64,000 nucleotides of DNA from Limnoperna fortunei. Its lineage: Eukaryota; Mollusca; Bivalvia; Mytilida; Modiolidae. Shown piece after piece: positions 33,070-57,961 of this stretch. The stretch spans positions 63,368,648 through 63,432,647 of the forward strand of contig OX104115.1 of NCBI GenBank assembly GCA_944474755.1, read 5' to 3'. Within the stretch, counting starts at the first letter, position 1; each line of letters starts with the position of its first letter. The notes beneath the pieces are model-generated. The model saw only the letters and a list, made by a program, of their open reading frames with translations, ran no database searches and had not been told where the DNA came from. The translations under genes and the position numbers were made by a program.

Positions 33070-33897
33070 AATTATGGCTCCCAAACAAAGGTTTGGGAGA
33101 CATATTATTTTTGCTCTGTTTCTTCTTATTTTTTTCTTCCACTTTCCGCCAAAATTTTGTCCGTTCGTTCTCTCAGAGACTATAAATTGGATCGATTTGA
33201 AACTTCACCCCTAAATAGGTCATGACTTGAAGTGGTGCCATTAGGGTCCACAGGGTTTGGAAGCCAGTTATGATCCATAAGATCATAATCATATTTAATT
33301 ATGTCTCCCCCCAATTGGTGGGGAGATATGTTGTTTTTGACCTGTCCGTCCGTGTGTCCGTCGTGCCGTCCGTCCGTCTGTCCGTCACAAAGTTATTCCG
33401 CTCAACTCCTCTGAAACTACTCAGCCAAATTTTACGAAACTTAATTGGTATTTAACAAGTACACCATATGTAGTTGTGCATATTACCTGGAAATTCTTAT
33501 CCTCAAAATTTTGTGGGAGTTATGGCCCTTTGAACTTATAATTTCCAAAAATTCCTCATAAATCATGGTTTCCGCTCAACTCCTCTGAAACTACTGAACC
33601 TACTTTTAAGAAACTTGATACATAGCAAGTACACCACATTTGGTTGTGCATATTACCAGGAAATTTTTTTCCTCTAAATTTTGTGGCCATTTGAACTTTG
33701 AATTTTTTAACAATTCCTTATAAATCATTGTTTCCGCTCAACTCCGCTGAAACTACTGCATCAAATTTTACGAAACTTGGTGTGTAGCAAGTACATCATA
33801 TTTAGTTGTGCATATTACAAGGAAATTTTTAGCCTCTGGGTCAAATCTGGGGAACGGGGGGAGACATCGTTTTTGTATGCAAAAACAAACTTTAATT
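33070..33897 (+). repeat. TCTCCC-type interspersed repeats, two adjacent heads
   Basis: 33075-33297 begins TATGGCTCCCAAAC...GTTTGGGAGACATA (short inverted head). A second one begins near 33300, ATGTCTCCCCCCAATTGG...GGGGAGATATG, and runs to GGGGAGACATCG near 33862. The second contains a CCGTCCGTCTGTCCGTC run and three ~160-bp internal repeats, each with TTCCGCTCAACTCC, CTGAAACTACT, ACGAAACTT and GTTGTGCATATTAC. Non-coding. Confidence 0.75.
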
Positions 33898-34346: not shown

Positions 34347-34755
34347 ACCATGAGTATAACTATATCACATTTTGGTTACCAAATCCTTTGTATGTAAACA
34401 TACCACGTGAAATATCAGTCACCAAAGGTAAGGGCCATGAATCACTTTTATAACTCGATATTTCAGATAACTTTTCACCACTCCCATTAAGAAATGAATT
34501 CAATAGTAGAATACAATTAAACACATTAAATCAACATTACCATGTATTTCATCACACATGACACACTGATGAAATGTTTAAAATAAAAAGAACCTTGGCC
34601 TAGAATTCATGAAGATTATGCCCATGGTCATATACTGTCGTATGTATTCGAATTAGAGGAAAATAATATAAACATTTTTACGTATACGAAACGTGCTGTT
34701 ATAGATAAGTGCAATTCGACAATGAATTTTTGTGTCTTCAAAAGCCCTAAACAAT
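34347..34755 (+). repeat. direct repeat D, copy 1
   Basis: Runs from ACCATGAGTATAAC through CCCATTAAGAAATGAATTCA and TGAAGATTATGCCCATGGTC to AAAGCCCTAAACAAT. Two further copies, same orientation, lie at 45846-46077 and 46225-46531 beyond the 9.8-kb inverted-repeat structure. Confidence 0.8.
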
Positions 34756-36837
34756 TACGGAAGCCTTTGAGGGCCATAAAATTTAGTTTTTATAATTTGT
34801 TATACCAGATTATTAATTTGATATAACAGATTATTAGTAAGATATAACAGATTACTAATTTGATATAACAGATTACTGATGAGAACATTTGGCATTTTGC
34901 TTTTGACAGGGGTCTGATTGCAATAAGTAAAAAATATTTACCTAAATAAGTAAATATATTTTACTTAAAGAAATAAAATATTTTTACCTAATTTCATAAA
35001 AAAAAGTTTACCTGTATAGGTAAACAAAATGATATATGGATTATTTCCCTTTGATAGACAACTCCTTTTTAAAGGAAGCAGAACAATGAGAATTTCTCCC
35101 ATTAGTCAAACATAAATGTCTTTATTATCTCCCTTAATTGTGTTTACCTAAATAGGTAAGTTATTCTTAATGGGTGTTCTTTCATATGTCTTGTATGTAA
35201 ATAGAATATTTTATGTATGAAGATATTTTGAATGATAAAGCAAGTCAATTGAATACTGAACAATTTATACATTTCTTTCCAACTTCTCTTCCAACAATAT
35301 ATGTATCATTATACTATAAAGTAAATCTGCATCTATTGACTGGATAATCAAGTATTCATGACATGTATCATATAAATTTTTTGTAATCATGTAGAAAATA
35401 AAAACAACTATGAATGTCTATTTTTGGTCCCTCAAAACTACTAAAACCAATAAACAACCTCATTCAAATTAGACTTTAAAGGCATGGCATTCAGCGGTAA
35501 CCAAATCTATGGAAGTGAAAACATTCCTTCCACATTTACATCAAGATGTTAGAGGAACTCGGGTTTTTGTTGACTTAATCTAAAATAATTATCAAAATTT
35601 TCATCAGAGTAAATAAAAAATAGTTATTTATTAAAAGAAAATGAAAAAAGATTTTGGGTATTATGTACCAATATAATAATTTTTTTAAATGCTAAAACAA
35701 GTTTTAAAGAAGGTTTCATACATCCAGTCATTTAGTTGAGAGATATTTTTTAATCATTTCAAGATAGTTCTTAGTTTAAAATCATTTCAAAAACATATAA
35801 AAATGTCATTGCTTGAGAAGTCTCAACATATTAATGAGTCAGATAGTTCCAAAGTCAAGACGAAAGATGACAGTAACTATTAATAACTACTAATAACTGC
35901 ATCACAATAAAAATATTATCATTTCTCATGTAGGTAGCAAAAACAAATACACTGACAAAAAACATTATTTTTCATTATAATTGTAAAAAAAATATCAAAA
36001 TGCTTATAAAAAGTGAACAAGATAAGAATGCAAACACATGAAAGCTATATACACCTGTATGCTTGTATAAAACTAAAACTCTTATGGCTTTATTAAAAAA
36101 AAAAACAATCACTCAAGATAAAATTCCACAATTTTCTATTATCTAATACCATATATGATATAGTATGGTTTACCTAAATAAGTAAATTTTGTTAACCTCA
36201 TGCAGTCGTTCTATGTTTGAACATTTTATCATCTTATTAAAATGAATAGAAAGATTTTATGGAAAAGTGTCGTTTAACAAAATAAATGAAAAGATTTGGG
36301 AGAATCAACTGCTTATCATGTAACGCGTTAAAACAAAAGATACTTAAACAGGTAAACCCAATCACTCAAGATAAAATTCCACAATTTTCTATTATCTAAT
36401 ACCATATATGATATAGTATGGTTTACCTAAATAAGTAAATTTTGTTAACCTCAAGCAGTCGTACTATGTTTGAACATTTTATCATCTTCTTGAAAATGAA
36501 TAGAAAGATTTTATGGAAAAGTGTCGTGTAACAAAATAAATGAAAAGGTCAGGAGAATCAACTGCTTATCATGTAACGCATTTAAACAAAATTTACCTTA
36601 ACGGTTAACAAAATCATTCAAGATAAAAAAAAATTCCCCTATTTTTTTAATGTAATATATGATGGTGTATGGTTTACCTAAATATGTAAATTTTGTTTAC
36701 ACCAAGAAGTCGTACTGTGTTTGAACATTTTATCATCTTATTGAAAATGAATAGAAAGACTTTATGGAAAAGTGCCGTTTAACAAAATAAATGAACAGGT
36801 CAGAAGAATCGACTGCATATCATTAAACGCATCAAGG

Positions 36838-37362
36838 GTCATCAAAAGGTTTGCCTTAAAATGGCTTATATTTAGATCGATTTTTCAGTATGTGTACAGC
36901 AAAGACTGCATATAGAATTCAAAAATAAACCATAGCAGGACCTAGATATAATAAATTCTTATTATTTTTTTATATTATTTTCATGGTTAATTCTGTTATT
37001 TTTAAGCTCTGCTTTTTTCCCGTTTTGAGCACAGCCGATTTGAGGTTAATAATACTTACATCCTTTCAAGTGGCACCAAATCTCATGCGACAATTAATTA
37101 TAATATAACTAAAAGTGTTCACCAACATGTCAGTTGAGTGGTACAATAGAGATATTTTGTCCTGTTCAAAATACATTTTGAACGGAAAAAATTTGAACCG
37201 TAAAAACTACGTTATCTTAAACTAAACCAATGTGTCAATATAATAAGGCGTATCCATATCTAGGTCCAACTATATTTGATTTGTCCTAATAATATTCATT
37301 TGTGCTGTACGTATACAAAGATTTTCTTCAAAAAAGTTCAATCTGTCCTGATGAACCTTAAA
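36838..37362. mobile_element. degraded inverted-repeat insertion inside the satellite
   Basis: Non-satellite DNA between two monomers. Its outer ~120 bp are diverged inverted copies: GTACAGCA near 36896 versus TGCTGTAC near 37303, and GGACCTAGATAT near 36940 versus ATATCTAGGTCC near 37255. No ORF. Confidence 0.55.
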
Positions 37363-40148
37363 AAAAAAGAACTTTCAACAGGTAAACCCAATCATTCAAG
37401 ATAAAATTCCACAATTTTCTATTATCTAATACCATATTTGATGGAGTATGGTTTACCTTAATAAATAAATTGTGTTAACCTCATGCAGTCGTACTATGTT
37501 TGAACATTTTATCATCATATTGAAAAGAATAGAAAAATTTAATGGAAAAGTGTCGTTTAACAAAATAAATGAAAAGATCGGGAAAATCCACTGCTTATCA
37601 TGTAACGCATTAAAACAAAAGATACTTAAACAGGAAGACCCATTCATTAAAATTAAATTTCCACAATTTTCTATTATCTAATACCATATATGATGGAGTA
37701 TGGTTTACCTAAATAAGTAAATTGTGTTTACCTCAAGCAGTCGATCTATTTTTGAACATTTTATTATCTTATTAAAATGAATAGAAAGATTTTATGGAAA
37801 GGTGTTGTAAGTTTTACAAAATAAATAAAAAGGTCAGGAGAATCAACTGCTTATCATGTAACGCATTTAAACAAAATTTACCTTAACGGTAAACAAAATT
37901 ATTCAAGATAAAAAAACAATCCCCAGTTTTCTTTTCTGTAATATCTGATGGTGTATGGTTTACCTAAATAAATAAATTGTGTTTACCTCATGCAGTCGTA
38001 CTATGTTTGAACATTTTATCATCTTATTAAAAGGAATAGAAAGATTTTATGGAAAAGTGTTGTTTTACAAAATAAATAAAAAGGTCAAGAAAATCAACTG
38101 CTTATCATGTAACGCATGACAACAAAATTTACCTAAACGGTAAACAAAATCATTCAAGATAAAAAATTCCCCAATTTTCGTTTATGTAATATCTGATGGT
38201 GTATTGTTTACCTAAATAAGTAAGTTTTGTTTACCTCATGCAGTCGTACTATTTCGAACATTTTATCATCTTACTGAAAATGAATAGAAAGATTTTATGG
38301 AAAAGTGTCATTTAACAAAATAAATGAAAACGTCAGGAGATTCAACTGCTTATCATGTAACGCATGTCAACAAAATTTACCTTAACGGGAAACAAAATCA
38401 TTCAAGATAAAAATTTCCCAATTTTCTTTTATGTAATATCTGATGGTGTATAGTTTACCTAAATAAGTACATTTTGTTTACCTTAAGCAGTCGTACTATT
38501 TTGAACATTTTATCACCTTACTAAAAATGAATAGAAAGATTTTATGGAAAAGTGCCGTTTAACAAAATAAATGAAAAGGTCAGGAGAATCAACTGCTTAT
38601 CATTAAACGCATTAAAGCAAAATTTACCTTAACGGTAAACAAAATCATTCAAGATAACAAATTCCACAATTTTCCTTAATGTCATAGTATGGTTTACCTC
38701 AGTAGGTAAATTTTGTTTACCCCAAGCAGTCGTACTATGTTTGAACATTTTAACATCTTATTGAAAATTAATAGAAAGATTTTATGGAAAAGTGTCGTTT
38801 AACAAAATTAATGAACAGGTCAGAAGAATCGACTGCATATCAATAAACGCATTAAAATAAAAGATACTTAAACAGGTAAACCCAATCATTCAAGATAAAA
38901 TTTCACAATTTTGTATTATCTAATACCATATCAGATGGAGTATAGTTTACCTCAAGCAGTCGTACTATTTTGAACATTTTATCATCTTATTGAAAATGAA
39001 TAGAAAGTATTTATGGAAAAGTGTCATTTAACAAATAAATGAAAAGGTCAGGAGAATCAACTGCTTATCATGTAACGCATGAAAACAAAATTTACCTTAA
39101 CAGTAAACAAAATTATTCAAGATAAAAATTCCTCAATTTTCTTTTATGTAAAATCTGATGGTGTATGGTTTACCTAAATAAGTAAATTTTGTTTACCTCA
39201 AGCAGTCGTACTATTTTGGACATTTTATCATATTGAAAATGAATAGAAAGATTTTATGGAAATGAAAAAGTCAGGAGAATCAACTGCTTATTCTGTAACG
39301 CATTAAAACACAATTTACCTTAACAGTAAACAAAATCATTCAAGATAAAAAGTTCCCCAATTTTCGTTTATGTTATATCTGATGGTGTATGGTTTACCTA
39401 AATAAGTAAATTGGTTTACCTCAAGCAGTCGTACTATTTTGAACATTTTGTCACCTTACTGAAAATGAATAGAAAGATGGAAAAGTGTCATTTAAAAAAA
39501 TAAATGAAAAGGTCAGGAGATTCAACTGCTTATCATGTAACGCATGACAACAAAATTTACCTTAACGGTAAACAAAATCATTTAAGATAAAAATTGCCCA
39601 ATTTTGTTTTATGTAATATCTGATGGTGTATAGTTTACCTAAATAAGTACATTTTGTTTACCTCAAGCAGTCGTACTATTTTGAACATTTTATCACCTTA
39701 CTGAAAATGAAAAGAAAGATTTTATGGAAAAGTGCCGTTTAACAAAATAAATGAAAAGGTCAGGAGAATCAACTGCTTATCATTAAACGCATTAAAGCAA
39801 AATTTACCTTAACGGTAAACAAAATCATTCAAGATAACAAATTCCCCAATTTTCCTTAATGTCATAGTATGGTTTACCTCAATAGGTAAATTCTGTTTAC
39901 CCCAAGCAGTCGTACTATGTTTGAAGATTTTAACATCTTATTGAAAATGAATAGAAAAATTTTATGGAAAAGTGTCGTTTAAAAAATAAATGAACAGGTC
40001 AGAAGAATCGACTGCATATCATTAAACGCATTAAAACAGAAGATACTTAAACAGGTAAACCCAATCATTCAAGCTAAAATTCCACAATTTTCTATTATCT
40101 AATACCATATCAGATGGAGTATGGTTTACCTAAATAAGTTAACTTTTT

Positions 40149-41082
40149 AGCTCACCTAACCCGAAGGGTGATGTGAGCTATTGCCATCACTTGGCGTCCG
40201 TCGTCGTCGTCGTCGTCGTCGTCGTTAACTTTTCTTCAAAAATCTTCTCCAAAACCACTGAGGGGATTGCTTTGAAACTTTGCACACATCATCAGTAAAA
40301 TATCCTCTACCAAGTTTGCACAAATCATGGCCTCAGACCAACCAACATGGCCGCCATGGCTAAAAATAGAACAGGGAGGTCAAAATACAGTTTTTAGCTT
40401 ATAGTTTAAAAAGTATAACAGATACAGGAAAACTGAAGAGACTTTCCTACTTCAGCATCAAAAGCTCTACAAAACACTCCATTGGGTCAAAGTTGTATGA
40501 TGACTCCTTGTAGGAGTTATTGCCCTTTAATTGTCAAAATTGATGATTTTTGCCATTTTCGCCTCAAAATCTTGAAAATTATTAGAACTAGAGAAAAAGT
40601 TAACATTGGTTAATTGTTCTGCTCTATGAGGGCTACACAAATGACTTAAGGGTCAAGATTGTCTGATTAACCTTTTAGGAATTATTCTCCTTGAACATTT
40701 TTTAATCAATTTTACTTGATTTTAAAAAATCTTCTCCTCTTTGACCAATGAAAGGACTGCTTTGAAACATTGCACACATCATCTTTAGGACGTCCTCTAC
40801 GTTGGCTTAAAATAGAAAAAAGGGGTGGGGGGGGAGTCGAGAGAGTTTTCGACTGATAGTTAAAAAAGTATAACAGGTACAGCAAATTTGAAGTGAACCT
40901 CCTTTCTCCCTCTAAGCATCAAAAGCTCCTCCTTATAGGAGTTATTTCCCTTAAAAGGTCAAAATTAATGATTTTTGCTGAAGAGTTGGGCAATTCCTTA
41001 TAGCAAAGAAAAGATTGATAAAAAGGGTTGTTTGGTTTCAGGTTCAGGTGAGCGATACAGGCTCCTGGGAGACTCTAGTTTT
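40149..41082 (+). mobile_element. CTCACC-type interspersed repeat inserted in the satellite
   Basis: Starts AGCTCACCTAACCCGAAGGG and ends GGTGAGCGATACAGGCTC...GACTCTAGTTTT, the same terminus as 26350-27463. It contains a (GTC)n microsatellite at 40197-40226 and two ~420-bp internal half-repeats, each with AATCTTCTCC and ACTTTGCACACATCATC-like segments. The satellite monomer continues on both sides. Confidence 0.8.
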
Positions 41083-44000
41083 ATTCCAAGCAGTCGTACT
41101 ATGTTTGAACATTTGATCATCTTATTGAAAATTAATAGAAAGATTTTATGGAAAAGTGTCGTTTAACAAAATAAATGAACAGGTCAGAAGAATCGACTGC
41201 ATATCATTAAACGCATTAAAACAAAAGATACCTAAACAGGTAAACCAATCATTCAAGATAAAATTTCACAATTTTGTATAATCTAATACCATACCTGATG
41301 GAGTATGGTTTACCTCAAGCAGTCGTACTATTTTGAACATTTTATCATCTTATTGAAAAGAATAGAAAAATTTTATGGAAAAGTGTCGTTTAACAAAATA
41401 AATGAAAAAGTCAGGAGAATCAACTACTTATTCTGTAACGCATTAAAACACAATTTACCTTAACAGTAAACAAAATCGCTTAAAGATAAAACTTCCCCAA
41501 TTCTCGTTTATGTAATATCTGATAGTGTATGGTTTACCTAAATAAGTAAATTTTGTTTACCTCAAGCAGTCGTACTATTTTGAACATTTTATCATTAAAC
41601 GCATTAAACAAAATTTACCTTAACGGTAAATAAAATCATTCAAGAAAAAAAACCCAATTTCCTTTAATGTAATAGTATGGTTTACCTAAATAAGTAAACG
41701 TTGTTTACCTCAAGCAGTCGTACTATGTTTGAACATTTGATCATCTTATTAAAATGAATAGAAAGATTTTATGGAAAAGTGTCCTTTAACAAATTAAATG
41801 AAAATGTCAGGAAAATCAACTGCTTATCATGTAACACATTAAAACAAAAGATACTTAAACAGGTAAACCCAATCATTCAAGATAAAATTCCACATTTTTC
41901 TATTATCTAATATCATATATGATGGAATATGGTAATTTTGTTTACCTCAAGAAGTCGTACTATTTTGAACATTTTATCATCTTATTGAAAATGAATGGAA
42001 TGACTTTATGGAAAAGTGTCATTTAACAAAATAAATGAAAAGGTCAGGAGAATCCACGGCTTATCATTAAACGCATTAAACAAAACTTACCTTAACGGTA
42101 AATAAAATCATTCAAGAAAAAAAAACCCAATCTCCTATTTATGTAATAGTATGGTTTACCTAAATAAGTAAACGTTGTTTACCTCAAGCAGTCGTACTAT
42201 TAGAATTAACTGCTTATCATGTAACGCATGAAAACACAATTTACCTTAACGGTAAACAAAATCATTGAAGATAAAAATTCCCCAATTTTCGTTTATGTAA
42301 TATCTGATGGTGTATGGTTTACCTAAATAAGTAAATTTTGTTTACTTCAAGCAGTCGTACTATTTTGAACATTTTATCACCTTACTGAAAATGAACATAA
42401 AAATTTTATGGAAAAGTGGCGTTTAACAAAATAAATGAACAGGTCAGGAGAATCAACTGCTTATCATGTAACGCATTGAAACAAAATTTACCTTAACGGT
42501 AAACAAAATCATTCAAGATAAAAACAAAATTCCAATTTTCTTTAATGTAATATCTGATGGTCAAAGGATTTACCCAAAATAGGGAAATTTTGTTTACCTT
42601 TGTTGAACATTATATCAACTTTCAGATATTTCTGGTTTGGTTGGAATTGTTTTCATGGATTAATATCATGTCAATAAAATTTCAAAAGGTTAATGTCATG
42701 TCATGATTATGAGAACTCTGAAATTTGACCTGCATGACCTAGAGAGGTGAATCAATGAGATTTACTGAAATTACTTTTTGTTGTTTGTTAATTTTCAAAA
42801 AATCATTGATCAATAAATTCTTAGCCTCGTGTAGTTATGTTAGTTTCAAATTAACTATCAGATCTGAATAGAGGAATAGAACTTTTATTTGTCAATCATG
42901 TCATGCATGTGCTCGATGATACATGTATAATTAATCTCATAAATCGTTTAAAATAAAATATCATGTCATACATAGTTTCCATATCATTTTTACATATAAA
43001 AAAAATTCAAACTATGCGTAATTTCACATTTATCGATATCTAAAATAATTTTTTTTTATTTGTTCACATATTAGGCCTAAACGTCAGACAAAATCGAAAA
43101 GTTTGATATTTTCTTTCAGACTGCTGACATGCATATGACCGATGAATTATTGCTCATTACTTCAAGCGGTATGCATTTAGAAAATGTTTTAAGACTGACA
43201 GAGTTGTCTGTCCAATTTCATTTCTTTCTTTTTATTTACGTAAACACGTAAAACCTTAAGAGTATCAGAAAATCCCAGCATATTTCAAACCACGTGCGCC
43301 GATCGAAATACATCGTGCGCCCTTCAAGAAATGGAAAAAGACGATGAAGAAAATGTTTAAATTCACTAGAAAATTATCGAGAAGGCTGTTAAAATTCATA
43401 CAAAGCAGATCTGGTCGATTGAATTTGGCTTAAATCTTATGTATTTTTATAAGAAAATCGATTTTTACGAATGTATTTACATGTCCTTGTTGATCTTTGA
43501 CCTGTCCACTGAAAGACCGCGTGATTCTGTTATGTAAACAAAGCATCTTGGGATAGCTGGGGCTTGTCATAAAGCGGCAAATTCAAAATCTCCTCCGACG
43601 GCACAAAAACGACTATTTTTGTTTACGCAAATAGGTAAAAAAAATTTACGCAAAATGGTAAATATTTTTTACTTACTGCAGTCAGACCCCAGACTGACAT
43701 AATGATTATATTTCTAACCGTGAAATATATTTAGTATCAGTAAATATAACCAGTTCCATCAAACACCAGTATAAAGCATGAAGAAAAAAACACATGCATA
43801 GTTTAATCTGTATTTGAATTAAAGAGATAAACACATGTTATAATGACCATTTTGGGTACCAAAAGATAGTAAGACTTTATTTATGTCACATGCGTTTTGC
43901 AAAAGGAACATTTTAAATGGTCACGTACTATTCGCATTTATCAGGTTATATGTTTGTGGTAGTAGGAGGCATAGGTTTACTGAATGGTATAAAATCAAGC

Positions 44001-44409
44001 ATTTTCTCTTTGTTCTGTGGCGGTTCTCTAACTTGTTATACCGAATATTTAGAGCTTTCCAGTTCCATGCTTTGGAAATTATTTTGCAAACATATATATA
44101 AAAATGTGATGTTGTTCTGGATTACTTGCTAAATTTGTATAGCCCGCCAACAAAAGTTTTTTAAGCTAAAGATTGATTGTTTATAACTCTAAATTCTACC
44201 AGTATTTAGAAGTACGCATTTTTTTCGTTAAAAATTGGCTAGTTCATTAATACAACATGTATCTTTATTACCTAAAACTGGTCATCGGATACAAGCGACA
44301 AACTATTTTTGTTTAAAATATTTTAAGGATTAATTTCTATAAGAAGTGACATTTTATGGTGCCCTACTACGACGAAATGAAAACCAGTCAATGTATTTTT
44401 TCCCATTTA

Positions 44410-44539
44410 AATAGTAAAATAATCTGTTATAACAACATAATAATCTGTTGTATTAAATTAATTATCTGTTATATCAAATTAATAATCTGTTATAACAAAT
44501 TATAAAAAGTAAATTTCACGGCCCTAAAAGGCTTCCGTA
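44410..44539 (-). repeat. right outer inverted arm with 21-bp satellite
   Basis: The reverse complement matches 34756-34880, with units AATAATCTGTTATAACAA / AATTATCTGTTATATCAA. Confidence 0.75.
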
Positions 44540-44623
44540 GTTTCTATTAATGGCGTCGGATGAAAGTCAGAAGCACGACTGAAATCTCCAAGCAGTTTTA
44601 GTGTTTTTATTATAAAGAGATCC

Positions 44624-44997: not shown

Positions 44998-45105
44998 TAA
45001 TATGTTATAAAAAAATTACAACAAATGTAATAATTTGTTATAACAAATTAGTCATCTGTTATAACAAATTAATAATCTGATATAACAACTTAATAATATG
45101 TTTTA
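44998..45105 (+). repeat. 21-bp satellite, degenerate block
   Basis: Repeated AATAATTTGTTATAACAAAT / AATAATCTGATATAACAAC units, same family as the arms of the outer inverted-repeat structure. Confidence 0.75.
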
Positions 45106-45566
45106 TTATACTTCATGCAAAAATGCTGTCTTTTTATTGGACAGTAACCATGTGTTAATTTCTACTGATTCCAATTTTAGCCCCGCCCATTATAGCAACG
45201 GGTGTTAATTCCTCATGCTTTCGTCCCAACGGGTGATATACAAAAAATTAACACCCGCTCAGACAGGAGAATGCCGAACATGAAAATTATCAACCGATCC
45301 AGCCGAAGTTTACGAGTGATATAAAAATTATCACCCACTCAAAACGAAAATTGCCAACAAGGAAAATGATTAGCCGCATCAGCTGAAATTTACTTGCACG
45401 TCGTTTGTCCTTTCGCGCAAACATGTCAGAGGCACAATACATCAAAATGTGCAATAATTATTGGAAAAACAACTAGTAGACAAACAAGCATTTTCTATTA
45501 AAAATATAATTCAGTACAGTTTCTATATGATAGTTCACGTTTCTTCTTTAGATAAGGCATTCAGTA

Positions 45567-45720
45567 TAATAAAAATCATACTGCCTATGAACTCAGGTGT
45601 TAGGGTAGATTATCAAATGAAGAAAAAATTATCACCCGAGACGAAGTCGAGGGTGATAATTTTTTCTTCATGTGATAATCTACCAAAACACGCTTGTTCA
45701 GAGGCAGTATGATTATAATA
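45567..45720. repeat. large palindrome with ~75-bp arms
   Basis: Left arm AATCATACTGCC...GGTAGATTATCA...GAAGAAAAAATTATCACCC and inverted right arm. Apex CGAGACGAAGTCGAGG at about 45638-45653. The stem nearest the apex is almost perfect. Confidence 0.9.
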
Positions 45721-45724
45721 TCAT

Positions 45725-45842
45725 ATTAATAATCTGTTATATCAAATTAATAATCTGTTATAACAAATTAATAATCTTTTTTATCAAACTAAATAATCTG
45801 TTAAATCAAATTAATAATCTGTTATAACAAATTAATAATCTA
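45725..45842 (+). repeat. 21-bp satellite, about 5.5 copies
   Basis: The unit TTAATAATCTGTTATAACAA(A) repeats with few changes and directly abuts the palindrome on its left and repeat D copy 2 on its right. Confidence 0.9.
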
Positions 45843-45845
45843 ACC

Positions 45846-46077
45846 AATAGTAGAATACAATTAAACATATTAAATCAACATTACCATGAATTTCATCACA
45901 AATGACAACTGACGAATACCTTGGCCTAGAATTCATGAAGATTATGTCTATGGTCATATAATGATTTATGTAATACTCGAATTTAGAAAAAATTAATACA
46001 ATATTTTGACCTATACAATATTATAGACACGTGCAATTCGACAATGAATGTGTGTGTAATCAAAAGCCCTAAACAAT
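45846..46077 (+). repeat. direct repeat D, copy 2 (partial)
   Basis: Starts AATAGTAGAATACAATTAAA and ends AAAGCCCTAAACAAT. Lacks the first ~140 bp of copy 1. Confidence 0.8.
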
Positions 46078-46136
46078 ACATCAAATACGATACAGTAGGA
46101 TGCTTACACGCATTATACACATTTATTACATTTACC

Positions 46137-46165
46137 CCCCCCCCCCACACCCCCACCCCCAATTG
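46137..46165 (+). repeat. C-rich low-complexity tract
   Basis: A run of about 14 C followed by CACCCCCACCCCC. G-quadruplex potential on the minus strand; separates D copies 2 and 3. Confidence 0.9.
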
Positions 46166-46224
46166 CGTTCCAATACAACATTTTTAATTTACTATAACAT
46201 ATAAATTGTTTGACAAGATAAATG

Positions 46225-46531
46225 ACCATGAGTATAATTATATAAAAGTTTGGTTACAAAATCCTTTTTAGCTAAATATACCACGTGGAATGTCAGCCAC
46301 CTATAAGGTCAATGTAACATGGATCACAGTTAATTTGCTCTTTTAATAACTCGCCATTTAGGATTACTGTCCACCATTCCCATTAAGAAATGAATTCAAT
46401 AGTAGAATACAATTAAAGATATTAAATCAACATTACCATACATTTCCCCACACATAAAAACTGATGAAATGTTTAAAATTAAAGGAAACATCGGCCTTGA
46501 ATTCATGAAGATTATGCCCATGGTCATATAC
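46225..46531 (+). repeat. direct repeat D, copy 3
   Basis: ACCATGAGTATAATTATA through CCATGGTCATATACT. Corresponds to 34347-34637. Confidence 0.8.
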
Positions 46532-46539
46532 TTTAATAG

Positions 46540-47490
46540 TTCAATAGTTCAATTTATTATCGTTAAGCTATTTTAACAGCTTGTGACACATCAACAACAA
46601 ACAATTCTACAGAGAACATATCAAAAGTGCCTTGACCTCTGTTCTATTCACTGTTTTATAAAGAAACATAGATTCTGAACCTGTCGAAAATGTATTGGGT
46701 TTAATATGAGATTAAGTTTCTGTTTGTCATTTAAATCATTTATTTGTTTTTATTTTTAATTAATTCTGAAACATAATTTTGCCTTGGTGTTCAATTTTTG
46801 TGAAAGTAAGAGAAAATGCGGGCTTTATGTTCTATTTCTCCAAGGGACAGAAATTACAAAGTCGGGTATAACGACCGGAATTTCTAGGGAATCATAACTT
46901 TTTCTGAATTTTGTAATTAGTTTTCTATGTTCAAAGTTTTTCCGAGAAAAAACGAGTTCAAGTTATAGGCTTGTTTTAAGTCTTTATTTAGAATAATTTA
47001 ATTTTATCATTTAACTGAACTATTTAATTAGTAAAATGTCCGTTATAATATCCATACCCATAAGATTTAATGACCTTTTCCAATGAATTGACCTCATTGC
47101 TGGCTTTACTTGATGTTAGTTTAGTTAAATCAAGTGAAGTTTGTGAAATAATGTCTTGGATATAAGTATACAAAGAATACACATTTGTTTTATTACAAAC
47201 AAAATGCTTTCTTAAGGAGTGGATTAATGTTATCTAATATATTATTTGTAGCAAAACGGTAATACTTGTCTTTAATAGGATTTTCTAAGTGAAATCTACC
47301 TAATTCTAGAAGTGTAGCTAAGTTGGAGGAATTCTCCTAGTACCTAATAAACGATTTATCTTTTTTCAAATGTTATATCTATAAAAGAGAAGCCATCTAT
47401 GGTTTTTGCATGAATTTTAGCTCTATAATATGGTAGATATGAATTCATCAAGCATTTTGCATTTTTCAGCATTATCAGTCAAAACAGGTC
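46540..47490. other. no gene recognised
   Basis: AT-rich unique sequence without domains or repeats. Confidence 0.5.
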
Positions 47491-47503
47491 TAATTAAGGA
47501 ATC

Positions 47504-49427
47504 GGGGCCGAATGGTAAGGTAGTTATTGACCCACTGTTGAACACGTGGTCTGTCAGCACTGAGATTGCGGGTTCGAGTCTCACTGCGGGCAGGGTGTAT
47601 TCAACTCCAATCTTAGTTGACTAGGATTGCCAGTTTTCCTACCGAAGGTCGGGGGTTGTCTTCGATACTTCGGCTTCCTCCCCAATAAAACTGGACGCCA
47701 TTATATTGTAACGAATGAACTTTTTATCACATTGTGTTTTCTGTAACAAATGCACATGGCCTGGGAATATTTCGCTTCTCTCGATGTTTGACAAATGTGT
47801 CTCCCATTTTTACCCACCTTGCTTGATTTCTCACATTGTCAGTGTCCTCATAATATATATTTTGCGGTGTTCAAACATTGGTATTCCTAGATATTTGAGA
47901 TATATTGTACCAATAATTTTTTGAACATGTGTTTGCATTACGAATACCGTCACTTCCGGTGCCCCGATCATGTTTTTGTTTATTATTTGTTTGTGTAATG
48001 CTGTTATGCAAATAAGTACGAGTGTGAGACCTTGATTTACTGAAAAGTACAGAAGTCGTAAAACTGTATCAATACGAATACGGTTTTCTAGCGATTTTTT
48101 GTGAATTTATTGACTTAAACTCGATTTGTTAATAATTTTATATTGTAGTCATTTTTAGGTTCCTAAAACGAACTTTTTAGGAAGTTTATTGTATATTTTT
48201 CAACTATCGGGGATTCATTTTCCTTAGTTTCAGGCTCTTCATCCACATAGTTTCCCGTTTAGGATAAACGGGGTATTTAAAGCAGATTCCCGTTTTTGTC
48301 GGGGTTCTTCCCCTGATCTCTTTTCACCAGACCACCAGTGCAGACGTTCTTTTTGCTTAGTGTCAAGACATCCTGATTTTAAAGTGTGGCTATACTAAGA
48401 TACACATTTTTACCATTGGATTTTCGGAATTTACCGGTCATTTTAGGGCGATATTTTCTTGTCCTAGACCAGTATTAAATTAAACGAATGTATATGAGCA
48501 GTCTGTCTATGTTTGCCAGTTACTCTGGAAAATGCCCTCCCCCTTTTCCCCTATGTAAGGACAATTGCTGGAACGTTACAAGTCATGTAAGCTGAGTTTT
48601 CCAGTACACAGAGAAACTAATTTTTAAACATATTTATTTATTTCATTTCCTCAATTTTTCGTTTAAGATGACAAACAGCAACATATATTTCAAGTCTATA
48701 ACTCTTTATTAAATATAATAAAATAAAAACAGTAGTTTTCTTCAATCAATTGATTGAAGTCTGTTCTTCTGTGAGATCCAGATGACTGTAAAAGTTACTT
48801 ATTGTTTGTTCATATAGAAACTAATAACAAATATAACTTATTATGAAGTCCTCGAAGTAAAGTAGCAGGATCCCATGCAGATAAGAGGTCTCTATTGATA
48901 CCCTGGCTAACTCATGAGACGGTAGTTTTGTTCGACTGTCCGTTCATCAGGTAGAGCATATTAATCGGTGTTTTAGTTTGGAATTTCTGTCCTTGACTTC
49001 TCTTTGAGTGTTGTTTTTTAAGATTCCGTTTTAGAGAATAGCTTCTGCGTTCTCTTATTTCAGATACGTTCTGATTTATAGAACTTATGAAAAGAGACTG
49101 TATACTTTGTCCAGACCACAATTTCCCTTGAATATTTAATATCGCCTCCACCCCCAATTTCGATTATTCCACTGCTCTGGCCTTGTATGGCCCCAAACAA
49201 ATAAATAACAGTAATAATATTCAATAACATTTAGACAAAGCTTGTCTCACCTCTCTATTCTAGAGTATTGTAAATACTCTAGTGAGGTTCCAGTGTACCT
49301 TCAAACGTTGGTGGTATCAGAAGAAATATACATAAGAGTACTCTACTCGGCCGACCCTGTTACAATAAAGCTGAATAATTGCCAAAAGTGGCGTTGAAAA
49401 CCATTCAAACAAACAAACAAACAAACA
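47504..49427 (+). mobile_element. tRNA-derived SINE split by a 1.66-kb insertion
   Basis: The head (47504-47705) has the box A remnant GGGGCCGAATGGTAAGG, box B GGTTCGAGTCTC, GCGGGCAGGGTGTATTC and ACTGGACGCCATTATA. The tail (49367-49427), AAAGCTGAATAATTGCC...ACCATTCAAACAAAC, continues the same SINE. The target duplication AATTAAGGAATC (47492-47503 and 49428-49439) brackets head and tail, proving they are one insertion. Confidence 0.9.
47706..49366. mobile_element. insert inside the SINE, ends TTGTAAC...GTTACAA, TA duplication
   Basis: Interrupts the SINE between ATTATA and TAAAGCTGAA. The 7-bp ends are inverted (TTGTAAC / GTTACAA) with TA on both sides, but no longer TIR is visible, so a Tc1/mariner-like non-autonomous element is only a suggestion. 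The interior has a small hairpin GTTTAGGATAAAC near 48258 and CTAGAGTATTGTAAATACTCTAG at 49260. No recognisable protein; the 81-codon minus frame at 48912-49157 is unassigned. Confidence 0.55.
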
Positions 49428-49867
49428 AATTAAGGAATCAAATAATGAACAAGCTACTTTTACTAGTACATTACCTATAGCTGCAAATCTTGCATACAAG
49501 GCAAATAGTATCTTTTTGGCTTTTCAGCTAAATAATTTAGAATAGAAGACTTGTTTCCAGTTTAGTTAAACACTATTCAAAGAAATTTATAATCTATAAC
49601 TGTTTATATCATTTCTTTTTATAGAATAATGAATTTTTATCTTTTCAATTGTTTTTTAAACCCCAAAGTTATAGTTTTTTACTGTTCTCAAAGTGAAGCT
49701 CGAACTTAGACACGATATTGTCTGCAGTGAATGAAGATAAGCAAAAATACCGTGAAACTGTTTATTCGCGAAGTAATATTTATCATATGTGGATTCGTAA
49801 AAATTCAAAAGAACTTTTGGAAAATTTAAAATCAAGATCGATAGCCTAACTTTTATATCTTAGAACA

Positions 49868-50440
49868 TTTGATTTTTCAATTCTTTATACTACCTTGCCG
49901 CACAAAAAACTAAAATCCCGTCTGAAGGAAATCATACATAAAGTCTTCGCTTCAACATATGCCTACAAATATGTAATTTTAAGTTACGACAATACGTTTT
50001 TACTACTAACTAAAGAACCAATGGGTACAAACTATGAGCACTCCTTGTCGTTTTGTTACTGTATTCTTATCAAGCTGGATTTCTTTGACTTCTTATTTAA
50101 GACAAAAAGATAGCAGAAACTAGGTTTGCTGAATGGCTTCTGACCTTGAAATGAAAGAAACCGCAGAAACAGCTTTATCTACATCATTTTTTAGACTTGT
50201 ATCTCGAATATGACACCAACGTTCATCTAAGCACAACAATTTTCGACAAACGAGAAGATTTTAACTTCAAAATTATATATTGTCCTCACTTATGCAGCAA
50301 TATTCCATCTTCTCCTGCATACGGTGTCTATATTTCTAAACTGGTCAGGTATGCAAGAGCATGTAGCGAGTATACTAATTTTTGCAAACGTCACCAATTT
50401 CTTCAGGATAAACTTTTTACCAATGGTTTTTATTGGGTTC
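49868..50440 (+). pseudogene. reverse-transcriptase remnant, Penelope-like or related
   Basis: Broken frames contain, in order, FDFSILYTTLPHKKLKSRL (RT block with the YTxxP motif), a PMGTNYEHSL segment (from a G-x-PMGTN block), and FDKREDFNF...SNIPSSPAYGVYISKLV and RYARAC (C-terminal RT/thumb region). These match the layout of Penelope-like and related RTs common in bivalves. The palm catalytic YxDD block is missing between 50010 and 50190, where a deletion has joined the segments. No intact ORF. Confidence 0.6.
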
Positions 50441-50589
50441 GGGTTACTCACTTCCTGTCTTTGTGTTTTTGGTTTTTATTTTGCGTTTTATATGTTTGTC
50501 TGTATTTGTAATTGTCCTTTGACTTTCGGCTCATGTTGTTCGGTCGGTTTCCTTTGCTGTTTTTCTTATGAACCAAAATTACAATAAAA

Positions 50590-52055
50590 CTAAGTTTTAC
50601 TATAGATACCACTTCCTTGGTGAAAAATATTTTATCTCGTTTAAAAATAGGGTAGCAGATAGTTTTCCCCATCTACGATGATTATTGGATACACCTATTA
50701 TTGACTAGTGGTATATTCTACAACTTCCGTTTCAATCACCATATCAACTCACACAGTTATGGAAGCAGGAGTTTTGGCATGCCATACAACCTTGTTTAAC
50801 CCACCATTTCTTTTGAAATAACTGTACCAAGTCGAGACAATCCTGTAGTATCTACATTTTTTTGTTCGTTTTGGAGTTTGCCGGTGTCTCGGACTGTGTC
50901 TGATTTGTGGATTTGTCTTTCTGAAAGTTTCCTCGGTGTTCGGAATTATATTATTAGCTTCATTCATTAATATATTCTGTTTAAAATAAAATAAAACATA
51001 ATAAAATGCACTCATCTATAAATTAAAAATAAAATATCACCAGAATGAAACTTAAAGATATTCAACCACTGAAAGTAAGGAAGCGCCTAACCGGATCTAT
51101 TTTATAGTACGGACTAGGTCTCATTATCTTTCAGTCGGTAGACTATTGTAAGGCATCCATTCTCGGAATTTGAGGTTCTGATATGTTTACTTCAAATTGA
51201 AATTAAATCTTCACATATTCATCCAAATTATTTGTTATAAATTTCTTTTGTAATTTAATAATTGTTTAATTTCATATCAGAATATTAAAAAGGGATTTAT
51301 TTGCAAAATAATTAGGCAAATATGAATTTCTTGATAATAAAAATATCTACTGTTATCTAATATATTTTCAATAATTATGCAAGTACGTGTTTCACCTAGT
51401 ACGTAATAGTTTTGTTTTTATTTTAAATCTGATTGGTTGTTTGGAGTATGTTGTATTTGGGCTCAAGTCCTAACGTGTCATAAAAATATCTCTAAATGTC
51501 ATATAATTTGTTCTACTGTTTATACAGTTATGATAGTGCTGACATCTTTCCTGCAATATTGTTTAAAGTTCGGATTACATATATCAAGGTTTTATTCATC
51601 GATGATTGGTCGTAGATGTTACTTATTTTATTTTTAAGATGCATTTTTATTATTGTTAAAATTAGTTAAATATAGACAAAAACAGTTTTATGAAGACAAT
51701 CTTATTATAATATTTTTTTAAATATCTTACATAATACGAAAGACACTTTTAAACTAAAAAATATATAAACTTCTTAACTGAAAAAAATATTTTTTAAGAT
51801 TTTACAATTAACGAGCAAATTTTTAAATTTATTAATACATGCCATTGTTTTTACTAATTACTTTAAACAGAAAACTAATCTCGTTCATTTTGGAGGCAAC
51901 AAGCTGACGCATTTTAAGTATTTCCCTATAAGAAATTAACATCCGAGTCCCTAAGACATTTATTTTAATCAATATTCAATAATCTGGTAAATTTCTGGAA
52001 TGACATTTCATGCTGCTGTGGTGCTTCCACCTTTTACAATTTTATTATATTTGGT
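50590..52055. other. no gene recognised; old repeat debris
   Basis: Contains fragments that look like 3' parts of the RT remnant (50580-51000), then AT-rich unique DNA. The minus frame 50749-51015 has a basic RHRQTPKRTKKCRYY segment but no domain I can name. Confidence 0.4.
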
Positions 52056-52061
52056 TTGACT

Positions 52062-52275
52062 TTTTTAAAAACATTTGTAGGAGCAAAAACTCCCAAAAGT
52101 CGAAACACTGTTTAAAGATTTCAAACGTGTTCGCTTGGTTATTGGTTGAATTGAATTTAACACCACTTTCAGCTACTGTTCAGCTATATCGTGGCGTCCA
52201 TTTTGTTTTTGGTGGGGGAGAAAGTCGGAGTATCTTTTAAAAACCCAGGACCTTCGGTAGGGAAACTGGCAATAA
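52062..52275 (+). repeat. segmental duplicate S copy 1 with minus-strand SINE tail
   Basis: 52062-52180 is almost identical to 54078-54200 (AAACATTTGTAGGAGCAAAA...TTGGTTATTGGTTGAATTG). From about 52150 a minus-strand SINE begins (TTTAACACCACTTTCAGC, then ATCGTGGCGTCC, ACCTTCGGTAGGG). It is cut at about 52275 where the minisatellite begins. Confidence 0.8.
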
Positions 52276-52289
52276 AACATGTCTGTTTA

Positions 52290-52825
52290 AATGTTGTTTA
52301 ACAGATATAGTAGCCAGCTTATATCTTCAACATATAGAGTAGCCGGGGTAATGCTTTAATAAACATATATAGCAGACGGCTTAGTGCTTTAATTAACATA
52401 TATAGTAGACGGAGTAATACTTTAAAATATATACTAACCGGCGTAGTGCTTTAATTAACATATACAGTAGACGGAGTAGTGCTTTGAAATATATAATAGC
52501 CGGCGTAGTGCTTTTAACATATGTAGCAGCCGGCGAAGTACTTTAATTAACATATATACTAGCCGGTGTAGTGCTTTAATAAAACATATATATAGCAGAC
52601 GGCGTAGTGCTTAAGTTAACATAAACAGTAGACGGAGTAGTGCTTTAAACTATATACTAGCCGGAATAGTGCTTTAACATATATAGCAGCCGGCGTTGTG
52701 TTCTAAAACATATAGTAGCCGACGTAGTGTTTTAACATTAACATATATAGCAGCCGACGTATTGCTTTAACATATAAAGTAGACGATGTAGTGCTTTAAC
52801 ATATATAGCAGTCGACGTGGTGTTT
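52290..52825 (+). repeat. minisatellite, about 17 units of 28-38 bp
   Basis: Units vary on AGCCGGCGTAGTGCTTTAA plus TTAACATATATAGTAG, with alternating AGACGG and AGCCGG variants. Copy length changes by loss or gain of the AATTAAC part. Confidence 0.9.
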
Positions 52826-52829
52826 CGCT

Positions 52830-53930
52830 CCACTCGCGAAAAGACATAAAATTTTTATCACTCGTGAAAGATCAACCGGTCTTTTCCAAAAACGTATGAA
52901 AGAACCTATTATTCTGTTTAATTTACCCTCGACATTCATTTAATGTAATATAAAACAGATTTGGACTAAAATTAACGGAAAACAAATAAGAGTTATGTCT
53001 ATTGTCATATATTAAACCTCGAATTATGGCGTAATTTAAATTTTAGCCCAAAAATAGGTCAAAGCAATAAACTCAAATATGTAAACAGAGTTAAAATTTA
53101 ATTTTAGTTCAACAGCATGACGTCAAATAGATGTAAAAATAATGTTTAAAAAATACTTCTTAAATAAACGTTCTTATAAATGAAGTGTTTAAATACACCA
53201 GTAAGAGCAATACACCGTCCTTATTCAAGCATTATTATATACTAATTTAGACACATGCATTTAACTGTCCCTGTTTACAATGGTAAATATTTATAATTGA
53301 AAATCTGTTATGAAACGCAAGAAATTCATTGAGCTTTCATGTTTTGCTATGAATCGGAATCTTATGCGGTATATGCTGGATGGATGCTGGATGCATTTTG
53401 TGGGAAAAGATGTGTTTGAGAAATAAATGTTTCATAAATTGTCAATCTAATTAAAATTAATTCTTTCACTTGCTCCCCGGTTTTTGTTATTGGCTGCATA
53501 GATGATACATTGTAAAGGTCACTGTGGTAAAGGTTAACTTTAAATATATATATATATAAGTGATTAACCAAACCACAAGCCTCACTATTCAATTTAAAAT
53601 ATCACTAAACACGCGATGAGGCTGAGTTGAAATGAAATTTTAATACATAATAAATAATTCAAGAAAAAACAAAAGAGGATTTGATACAAAATGCAGACAC
53701 AATATTTTAATTGAGCATATATTTGCCCTCCTGTGGTAAATCTATACTCTATACTTGCCGTTTCAAGAAAGAGTGGACACTTGATAAAAATTTGAGGGTT
53801 GATATGAAATCACGTGATTTCTTCGATGCAGAATACAATACTTGTAAAAGTTATACTAACTGTAGCCATGTAACCATTAAAAAGTTTTTTAACAGACTCC
53901 GAGATAACTACCAATTCTTGTTTATTTAAG
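52830..53930. other. no gene recognised
   Basis: AT-rich unique sequence. A (TA)n run lies near 53545-53560. The 72-codon frame 53711-53929 has no domain. Confidence 0.5.
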
Positions 53931-53934
53931 TCGA

Positions 53935-54080
53935 AAAGACCAGATCCGATGATCAACAGTTGGTTTTTATTGCTATTTAGGTAAAGACCAGATCCGATGA
54001 TCAACAGTTGGTTTTTATTGCTATTTAGGTGGCCTAAATAGCAATAAAAACCAACTGTTGATCATCGGATCTGGTCTTTT
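53935..54080. repeat. palindrome with direct-direct-inverted triplication
   Basis: A ~47-bp block (AGACCAGATCCGATGATCAA...GCTATTTAGGT) occurs twice in tandem (about 53937-53983 and 53987-54033) and then once inverted (about 54034-54080). The three copies are virtually identical. Confidence 0.95.
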
Positions 54081-54210
54081 TTAAAAACATTTGTAGGAGC
54101 AAAAACTCCCAAAAGTCGAAACACTGTTTAAAGATTTAAAACGTGTTCGCTTGGTTATTGGTTGAATTGAATTTAACGCCACTTTCAGCTACTGTTCACC
54201 GAGGCCAATG
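54078..54210 (+). repeat. segmental duplicate S copy 2 with internally deleted SINE
   Basis: Matches 52062-52190. The SINE part retains only its 3' end (TTTAACGCCACTTTCAGC) joined to its 5' head (CACCGAGGCCAATGACG) on the minus strand; the middle is lost. Confidence 0.8.
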
Positions 54211-54214
54211 ACGT

Positions 54215-54980
54215 TCGTTTCATGGAGACATTAATCTTTTATAATCTCACACACTACGACACGTATCAAATAACGAATTAATAGACATATCTAAATTTAG
54301 CGAACAGATAAAACGTTTAAAGATTTTCACTTGTAAAAAAAAGAAAAAGTAGAAAGGAAGTCCGTTATATTTATGCATAATATAGTCAAATAAATCTCAA
54401 CGTAGAGCCAGTTTACTACGGATAAGATCTTAAACCTTTCAAAAATCTTGATGTGAAAATGCAATGTTTATATAATTAAAAAAGGTTATTTTAATTAATA
54501 TTCAATATCTGATAACTTCTGTAATAGCAGTTCATGCAGCTGTCGTGTTTTACTTTATGTTTAAAGCTATATTATATAATTCTTATACTTCTCATACTTC
54601 TTTCTGCTCATACTACTTTCTATGACAATAAAAATTATTTTTCCAAAGTTTTCAAACATTTTGTCTACAAAGTTCTATCGACCGGTGAATCGAACATTTC
54701 CGGTTTTAAGTTTTCCCGTATGGGAAGGTAAAGGCGCGGCCAATTAAAAAATAACAATTTTTTTAAGGATAACTTTTCGCGCGGTTTTCCTGACAACTTC
54801 AACCAAATGTATTCTTTCAACACTGTAGCATTCCCCTCCGCTACCGCGACAGGAAATAATAGTAAGTGATTTAAGCCAAATAAAAGCACTACATCCCTCT
54901 ATGCCGTTTAATAGCTGTATATTATTCGGTGCTTCAGTGTAGCCGACGCCAGAAACGTTGAAACATTGTAGATGGTTACG
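54215..54980. other. no gene recognised
   Basis: AT-rich. 54497-54545 is a weak match to 51972-52030, hinting that the S duplication was originally larger. Confidence 0.4.
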
Positions 54981-54985
54981 ACTAA

Positions 54986-55402
54986 TTACCCAGTCAATAA
55001 CTATAATAGGATTAAAAAATACTAAGGACCGACAGGGACGGATCCTTGATTGTATGTTGGGGGAGAAATGATACGGAGAGGGGTCTAGAGGGTTGAAAAT
55101 AACAACAAAAAGGACAAATTTTAAAAGCATGCCATTATTAATGAGTACATTTTAACTCCATGTAATCAATACAAATTCAACCTTACGTATCATATTAACC
55201 CATTGGACCCCTCTCCAAATCATTGTGGCCTCTCCCAAACAAAAATCATGGATCAGCTCCTGCCTGACTTAGTATTTTTTAACTATGTTATTGACTGGGT
55301 CATTAGTCAACAGCTGATCTTTTGGACCCGGCTTCGGGCAACGGTTCAGATAGAGGACCAACAGTCATCTGTTGACTGATGACCCAGTCTATAACTGTTT
55401 TG
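54986..55402. repeat. foldback element with ~115-bp arms plus third partial arm
   Basis: 54986-55098 and 55195-55318 are inverted copies (CTAAT(T/G)ACCCAGTCAATAAC, TTAAAAAATACTAAG, GAGAGGGGTC). A third segment 55357-55402 (GTTGACTGATGACCCAGTCT) is again inverted to 55290-55325, with CCCGGCTTCGGG at 55327 as the apex of the second hairpin. The outer antisense frames (54665-55130) are by-products. Confidence 0.8.
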
Positions 55403-55404
55403 CT

Positions 55405-57515
55405 GCAAGGACTACATATTAGTCTGAATTATAATTTCTTTCGTTTCAAAAGCAATTTTTAACTGAGAAATTTAACTTTTTATCTGTCGATTACATTTGA
55501 CGACCTTTAGTAGATTGTTAGGTGTCCTTGTTTGAGGTGTTTACTGCTTTATTTTATTATTGACAATCTCTAGCCAATTAAAATCATTCCCAGCTGTTCA
55601 ACAGAACAGCCCCTATAAACTATTGATCTCAGAACTTATTATATAATGCTGTCAAAAATATCAGAATATTTACAAGAATCTTCTACAATTTATATAGGGA
55701 CAATACAATGAAGAATAACAAATATATATTATACTTTAAAGATTTATTTTCCATTTATGTCCTTGTTTTGATACTAAAATTCCGGATTCGTCCGGTTTTA
55801 CCAGAATTTTATATACCATTTATATGCGTCTTGAAGTCTATTACGGATGTCAAGAATTCTTTAATATGAAATATTCGCTGAACTCTTTTAGAACATATTT
55901 ATCAGAAAATACGGACACACACGGCTCAGCTGGTTGAGAATATCAGTATTTACTATCAGTTCGTTTGAAAGTGTAGTTGAACCATTCCCAACTAATATTA
56001 CATATAAATGTTAATGATGATTCTAAAAACTTTTACTCTGTTTTGAGTTAATTCAGTGAAATTATATTGTTTAACACTGAACATTTTTATTGTCAATGGA
56101 GTGAGAACTTGTTCCTGGTTGTTAAAGTTGTTTAAATATTTCCTTTTAAGTTAAATTTACGAAAGCTGGAAAAATAAATAGAAGCGGAAGGAAAACAGAA
56201 AATAAAGCAACAGAAAACAGACAAAATAAACATAGCGTATCTTAAACATGGAAGATGGAGGAATATTGTCAGTGATACATAAAATTTCTTAACATATTCT
56301 TCTATAAAAGCCCGATTCATTAATTATAATATAGAAAATAGTTCATAGCACTTTGGGTCGATGCCAGTATATGGACCTGTTAGTCACCGGCACCAAAAAC
56401 ATATGTGGACCTCAGCTTTGCTTAGGTCCACCCTTGTTTTGTGGGTAACTGCCTGTTCCCTATACCTCATATGACCCTCAGTGCCATGAATTATTGTTAA
56501 CTATATATTTTTTTGTGTTAAGTTCAAATATTATCATTTTCTTAATTATTCACGGTTTCGCAATACTTCACGGTTTTCATAATACCCAGCGTCATGTATT
56601 TATTGTCTATTTACTTTTTCATAAAATTTCAAGATTTTTTAGACCGTCATATTTTCTACGAAGGTCTGATTTTTTTTTATAAGCATCTGGTCCCTTAATA
56701 AATACTGTTATAGCAGAAATGTTTATTAAAGTGGCTTTAAACCACTAACACACAATATCATATTATTCCAACTGATCCGTGTGTCTCCGTTCTTTCAGTT
56801 TTCTTTAGTTATTTCTTTATGCGTTTGTATTGTTTGTCTTTTGCTAATATTAACGAGCTGTATTGGTATTTAGAATTAACGGTCGAGTTTGTTGGTTATG
56901 TATTGTGCATATGCAGTTTTTGTTGTATTTTTGTTGGTGGGATTCGTTTCTGCAAGTCTGTGTTGTTACGGTGTTATAATAGAGCGGAGGGTTAGATCTA
57001 GTCCACGCCTCCATGTAATGCCTTTTATTTATAATGGCCAGTAGTTTATTCCCCCGTACTTTTTTATTGATGCCATGTGTTTGTCGTTATTTTGCGATGC
57101 GTTGTTTGGTCCTTTAGTGATTAATTGAATTGTTAGATATGAGTTCGATGTTTCTCACTGGTTGAGATATCCTTGTCTCAATCCGTGGCTAAGATAAGAA
57201 TTGCACGCTCCTTTTCCCGTAAAAAAATGTATTGTGACGTCAACTGTCTGTTCAGCAATAAAAATCATAAAATACTTGTTTAATTGTGTTGGTTTACTAT
57301 GCCTCTTTAAAAATTAGCATGAAAACAACTTATCTGAGCTTTCATGACCCAATTTATGCCACAATAAGATAGCGGTAAACATCAAAACAAACACTGACGC
57401 AACAAATGTACACTGGAGATTATGTTCAGCGTAGATAACTATATTTGTTGACATCTTCCAACAGAACAGAACATAAATTTTTAACGAATTAGTGAGAAAT
57501 AGAATCAAACATAGG
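55405..57515. other. no gene recognised
   Basis: AT-rich. A small hairpin, GTGGACCTCAGCTTTGCTTA with GGTCCAC, lies near 56404-56430. No coding frame with a domain. Confidence 0.5.
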
Positions 57516-57516
57516 T

Positions 57517-57676
57517 GCCTACCACCGATGTTTGATGTGCAAGACGGGAAAATCTCAGACACCTGCGTGAAAGATTTCTTTTGGTCTCGGCAGAGCCACG
57601 TTGGAGACCAGAAATCTTTTCACTTGGGTGTCTGAGATTTTCCCGTCTTGCCCTCTCACCGGTGTTAGATCCTATA
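57517..57676. repeat. large palindrome with ~70-bp arms
   Basis: Arms read GCAAGACGGGAAAATCTCAG, ACACC(T/C), TGAAA(A)GATTTCT and are inverted around TCTCGGCAGAGCCACGTTGG (about 57585-57604). A (TA)n microsatellite (57672-57694) abuts the right arm. Confidence 0.9.
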
Positions 57677-57699
57677 TATATATATATATATATCTTATT

Positions 57700-57955: not shown

Positions 57956-57961
57956 AACGAG

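Follow-up and report, generated by a model that had tools for sequence, protein, structure and literature searches.

Examination of a 64-kb window from the golden mussel Limnoperna fortunei (assembly GCA_944474755.1, contig OX104115.1, positions 63,368,648 to 63,432,647 of the forward strand; all coordinates below count from the first base of this window) revealed an 8.8-kb element at 34909-43690 that is bounded by terminal inverted repeats (TIRs). The element is a worn, apparently non-coding one of the TIR type, the middle of which has expanded into a tandem array sharing a short motif with the ends. Among the explanations considered, we favour, with moderate confidence, a decayed non-autonomous cut-and-paste transposon lying inside another TIR element, in which a repeated subterminal module seeded the internal satellite.

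Inverted ends with phased half-sites

The left TIR (34909-34967, plus strand, starting GGGGTCTGA) and the right TIR (43632-43690, minus strand) form an inverted repeat of 59 nt in which 48 of the 59 bases match (81%). The similarity sets in abruptly at the G-rich outer end (hereafter the GGGG ends), as it does in transposon ends. The pair reached a local alignment score of 63, whereas dinucleotide shuffles (n = 300) averaged 29.3 and did not exceed 38; the segments shuffled were 34881-36090 and 42600-44410, which exclude the outer arms described below. A chance inverted repeat is therefore ruled out, and the inverted ends that the original prediction had assigned to the element are borne out; inverted ends beyond chance are also what a non-autonomous cut-and-paste DNA transposon should have.

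Both ends carry TTTAC/GTAAA half-sites at identical offsets of 19, 29, 42 and 52 from the outer end, which read GTAAA, TTTAC, GTAAA and TTTAC on the left. Additional half-sites are found at offset 65 on the right and at 75, 99 and 112 on the left, with a spacing close to a 23-bp phase; on the left, the 23-bp period was also called by TRF (34922-35024). The last three of these sites belong to a left subterminal stretch (34968-35030, plus strand) that continues the 23-bp repeat and contains the perfect palindrome TTTACCTGTATAGGTAAA at 35007, and a lone additional palindrome, TTTACCTAAATAGGTAAG, is located at 35143-35160 (plus strand). Half-sites reach 53-56 per kb at the ends and 12-18 per kb in the array, and their density falls to 5.3 per kb in the left internal spacer (35161-36102), near background, and to 8.0 per kb in the right one (42600-43600), the background being 4.1-4.3 per kb (1-34500 and 45000-64000). 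In the 59-nt alignment, none of the 11 mismatches lies inside the 21 half-site columns (hypergeometric P = 0.0043), a post hoc test, the motif having been derived from these very ends.

The longest stop-to-stop open reading frame (ORF) inside the element encodes 74 amino acids. A total of 43 such ORFs of at least 45 amino acids overlap 34757-44540; Pfam was searched with 20 of them, among them ORFs of both internal spacers, and these 20 yielded weak matches only, none, to a transposase family or to any other, above the curated cut-off. Within that scope, the statement that the element codes for nothing is upheld. A 70-amino acid reading frame derived from the monomer had no relative in the protein collection searched, and no RNA family reached its gathering score anywhere in the window.

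A satellite array inside the element

The array occupies 36103-42599 (plus strand) and has a consensus monomer of 247 bp. A profile built from 16 monomers gave 24 matches with E values up to 1e-3, all of them within these limits and on the plus strand, and none elsewhere in the window. These can be read as 18 full-length monomers (at least 225 of the 247 model positions), a monomer that an insertion divides into 36707-36848 and 37357-37483, and three copies that are partial or carry internal deletions, where roughly 20 monomers had been announced beforehand. Two non-satellite insertions, both with approximate edges, interrupt the array: one within a single monomer (36838-37360), delimited by reading of the sequence and by the gap in the profile, and a second (40150-41085) that holds a (CGT)9 microsatellite and a short, weak inverted match, GCTCACCT...AGGTGAGC.

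The 18 full-length monomers share a mean pairwise identity of 87%, and the closest relative of a monomer is often not its neighbour. Monomers at 38487 and 39667 are 97.9% identical (offset 1180), those at 38240 and 39425 are 95.4% identical (offset 1185), and the block 38722-39231 recurs at 41086-41595 with 93% identity. Since near-identical blocks are found at a distance within the array, growth probably proceeded by block duplication, and part of it is probably younger than the divergence of the TIRs, provided that these were once identical. The head-to-tail arrangement of the monomers and their local homogenisation by duplication are those of satellite DNA.

A motif common to ends and monomers

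The element contains 34 TTTACC...GGTAAA-like palindromes (at most one mismatch per 6-base arm and a spacer of 3-8), 11 of which are perfect; when its sequence was shuffled 20 times, 2.8 were obtained on average and never more than 7. They are distributed as 27 in the array, three in the first 250 bases, three in the last 460 bases and one in an insert, for 49 in the whole window. The proposal of two palindromes per monomer holds for the consensus; it does not extend to every monomer, as either may be damaged or lost. Of 21 monomer intervals, 14 keep the first palindrome with at most one change and six have in its place a variant with a damaged left arm; in one, the split monomer, it was not found. 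Among the 18 full-length monomers, the second can be recognised in 15, with four edits in one case, and is missing from three; a loose match at 41714 corresponds to an adjacent half-site.

The monomer module TTTACC-N7-GTAAA-N5-TTTAC reproduces the 13+10 spacing of the half-sites at the ends. Aligned to the left end, it gave a score of 43 over 34 nt, the best among four end and strand comparisons, a value reached by none of 200 shuffles (maximum 38). The claim that the satellite is made of the same motif as the ends is upheld to this extent, and draws no support from the remaining three comparisons, which fall within the range of the shuffles; the link between monomer and ends consequently depends on the left end and on the spacing.

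Origin of the element and competing explanations

According to the explanation that we favour, the row of TTTACC/GGTAAA half-sites near a 23-bp phase would have offered multiple binding sites to a transposase provided in trans. A segment bearing a copy of the subterminal module may then have been tandemly duplicated inside the element, and local segmental duplication would have expanded it to a satellite of about 22 copies, so that ends and monomers would share the motif by descent.

Several observations weigh against this scenario. In the three weaker comparisons between monomer and ends, 11, 39 and 14 of 200 shuffles reached the observed score, and the similarity to the left end is confined to about 34 nt, the remainder of the monomer having no detected source in the element. 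Mobility, and with it the target duplications that were to be sought, found no confirmation at this locus: no target-site duplication abuts the GGGG ends, and TGACA alone is common to both flanks, its right copy being offset by 4 bases. A second copy of the ends or of the monomers is absent from the 64-kb window. Scans with exact patterns gave no copy in viral contigs and a single hit in prokaryote genomes, a Prevotella contig rejected as a chance match of 20-21 bases, neither collection being meant for mussel DNA. Given the missing duplication, membership among the DNA transposons is not regarded as proven; the element has the build of one and was probably one, now decayed.

A serious rival, although in our view an unlikely one, takes the unit to be a single 9.8-kb structure (about 34758-44537, with TA at both edges), of which the GGGG block would be the inner domain of a composite, foldback-like TIR. 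The whole GGGG element is indeed enclosed by an outer inverted repeat of 123 nt and 87% identity, which the original prediction had left unmentioned, with a left arm at 34753-34875 (plus strand) and a right arm at 44420-44542 (minus strand). Its edges, TACGGAAGCC (from 34756) and GGCTTCCGTA (the final letters, at 44539), show TA on both sides. What makes this rival serious is the combination of these arms with the lack of a direct repeat abutting the GGGG ends. The outer arms are also better kept than the GGGG arms (87% versus 81%), and composite TIRs of several domains are known for Tetris (PMC4079207) and Tm1 (PMC3169594, PMC6446971). On the other hand, outer and inner arms are separated by 33 nt on the left and by 729 nt on the right, and these unequal spacers show no inverted match to each other among the 25 longest of 162 pairs. 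The abrupt onset of similarity at the GGGG ends is transposon-like, and the outer arms bear a repeat of their own, of 21 bp (TATAACAGATTA..., about four subterminal copies in the left arm), unlike the inner 23-bp repeat.

Self-matches of the window were considered outside the array and 52200-52900; of the 61 that were left, those of at least 60 nt or above 60 bits were retained. A further copy of the segment 34501-34755, which adjoins the outer arm on its left, is present at 45845-46077. The match stops where the outer arm starts, as would follow from an insertion marked by that arm. Because this match does not take in the flank on the right, it falls short of a clean empty site. Related 21-bp repeats (TATAACAGATTATTAATTTGA-like) form four arrays in the region, at 34793-34875 and 44418-44502, both in the outer arms, and at 45016-45102 and 45718-45841.

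Less probable still is the capture of a pre-existing satellite by the arms, or its mere location between them, in which case the motif in ends and monomers would reflect convergence in AT-rich DNA. Such an origin would accommodate the shortness of the monomer match to the left end, the three of four comparisons that stay within the range of the shuffles and the best conserved stretch of the monomer, around GCAGTCGTACTATTTTG, for which the ends gave no match; that elements may capture tandem repeats has also been proposed in the literature. The left-end match above all 200 shuffles and the recurrence of the 13+10 spacing argue against it.

A bolder reading, considered improbable, is that a mussel transposon family copies its own phased end-binding module internally as a satellite, and that the array itself takes part in transposase binding, through assembly, titration or the seeding of arrays. 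If true, this participation of the array in binding would tie the birth of a satellite directly to transposase binding sites.

A functional decoy titrating the transposase or a host protein, or an array of selected regulatory sites, appears very unlikely, and the suggestion that the element acts as a transposase sponge could not be sustained. In its favour stand the number of palindromes, well over that of the shuffles, and the abundance of the forkhead-like core TGTTTAC/GTAAACA, with 31 occurrences in the 8782 bases of the element (34909-43690) and 21 in the 55201 bases elsewhere in the window. With gaps ignored, the second palindrome is also slightly better conserved than the remainder of the monomer (0.951 versus 0.927 for 16 monomers, 0.931 versus 0.926 for 18). 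The first palindrome is less conserved than the remainder in both sets (0.897 and 0.895, respectively), and when gaps are scored as mismatches the second drops to 0.841, versus 0.905 for the remainder, because it is deleted in a few monomers. Among windows of equal length, the first palindrome is equalled or exceeded in conservation by 84%, and the second by 22% in the set of 16 monomers and by 42% in that of 18. Neither palindrome clearly exceeds the remainder of the monomer in conservation, the second being about equal to it and the first less conserved; together with the lost and damaged copies described above, these values give no clear sign of selection. Duplication of the monomer by itself multiplies the motif and explains the number of palindromes, and we regard the excess of the core, unless shown otherwise, as a by-product of the repeated motif.

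Other features of the window

The window is AT-rich and eukaryote-like, and contains ORFs for reverse transcriptases, a piggyBac-like transposase and a DDE_3 fragment. The piggyBac-like transposase (PF13843) is encoded by an open frame of 605 amino acids at 19753-21570. Among the best 120 of its 473 matches, the top one is 76% identical, and the nearest named proteins with full coverage are from Mytilus (53-68% identity), in keeping with a mussel-family host as far as a mobile gene can show it. The region 5924-10643 harbors two ORF pieces that lack a Pfam match but resemble a tyrosine-recombinase gene, and after them a GDSL-lipase-like ORF; a 1048-amino acid endonuclease/reverse-transcriptase ORF splits the two pieces, as if an element of the type lacking long terminal repeats (non-LTR) had inserted there.

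Two further repeats were observed. At 33343-33837, a GTCC-rich microsatellite (33343-33386) is followed by 2.6 copies of a 162-bp repeat, a layout resembling the microsatellite and central repeat of bivalve Pearl/HINE elements (PMC7492417). At 52297-52824 lies a minisatellite of about 17 copies of a 29-bp unit (ATATATAGTAGCCGGCGTAGTGC-like).

Comparison with known systems

TIR elements that hold internal satellites or carry repeated end sites have already been described, and the idea of a novel class of non-autonomous transposon accordingly finds no support. Six exact motif strings of the element gave no match in the papers searched, which is a weak negative since such strings are rarely printed. 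In the accessible parts of the respective papers, neither "terminal inverted" nor "Helitron" occurs in the one on golden-mussel satellites, and no TIR element of the present kind is named in the one on the oyster satellitome.

The Tetris/TIR-220 element of Drosophila virilis is apparently non-autonomous and has internal tandem repeats of about 220 bp, variable in number, that also form longer satellite arrays (PMC4079207). The mussel element resembles it as an apparently non-autonomous TIR element with internal tandem repeats. The repeats of Tetris lie inside long TIRs flanked by target duplications of 8-9 bp, whereas the present element has one central array, short TIRs and no abutting duplication. 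The long TIRs with tandem repeats on both sides that characterise foldback and Tetris-like elements are not seen here, as TIR similarity stops at 59 nt and the array is single and central. Galileo, of the P superfamily, has several transposase binding sites, some of them in tandem repeats of its TIRs, and binding by its THAP domain was established experimentally (PMC3688188). Repeated end sites, in the mussel element candidate binding sites, are common to both systems; no transposase was found here in the ORFs scanned, and the TIRs of Galileo exceed 1 kb, against 59 nt here. Tm1 and Phantom are Mutator-like foldback elements with TIRs made of short tandem repeats and with members resembling miniature inverted-repeat transposable elements (MITEs); the TIRs of Phantom measure 18-613 bp, and a minisatellite is present in some of its elements, in aphids (PMC3169594, PMC6446971). 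These families have target duplications of about 9 bp and repeats of 13-15 bp, in contrast to the 23-bp repeat found here, again with no transposase in the scanned ORFs. A Mutator-like element should have a target duplication of 8-11 bp and a partner with a MULE transposase; the 9-bp flanks of the present element, CTTTTGACA and AGACTGACA, agree at five of nine positions.

Among bivalves, Pearl and Cg_HINE (PMC7492417) and, reportedly, DTC84 are non-autonomous elements with central satellite-like arrays, and the present element is akin to them in host group, in its apparently non-autonomous nature and in its central array. In HINEs the inverted repeats are subterminal and accompanied by a left-flank microsatellite and a 3' palindrome (PMC7492417), whereas here the inverted ends read GGGG...CCCC; a microsatellite is listed just once in the element, the (CGT)9 of an insert, and none adjoins the array. 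Inverted ends are present when the element is compared with Helentrons and HINEs; depending on the nesting, they would be terminal or subterminal. In Xenopus, Xstir and miDNA4 are satellite arrays inside MITEs or derived from them (PMC12628747, PMC9659126), known from many loci or several species, whereas the present element is known from a single locus.

Compared with the systems described in these sources, the mussel element is distinguished by its central array, its short TIRs and a half-site module shared by ends and monomers. It is probably a bivalve example of the documented path by which transposons give rise to satellite DNA, and it offers a testable detail, namely that one half-site module, near a 23-bp phase, is found at both ends and in the monomer. 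Should the family have several copies with varying numbers of monomers, it would show whether end-binding repeats seed satellites.

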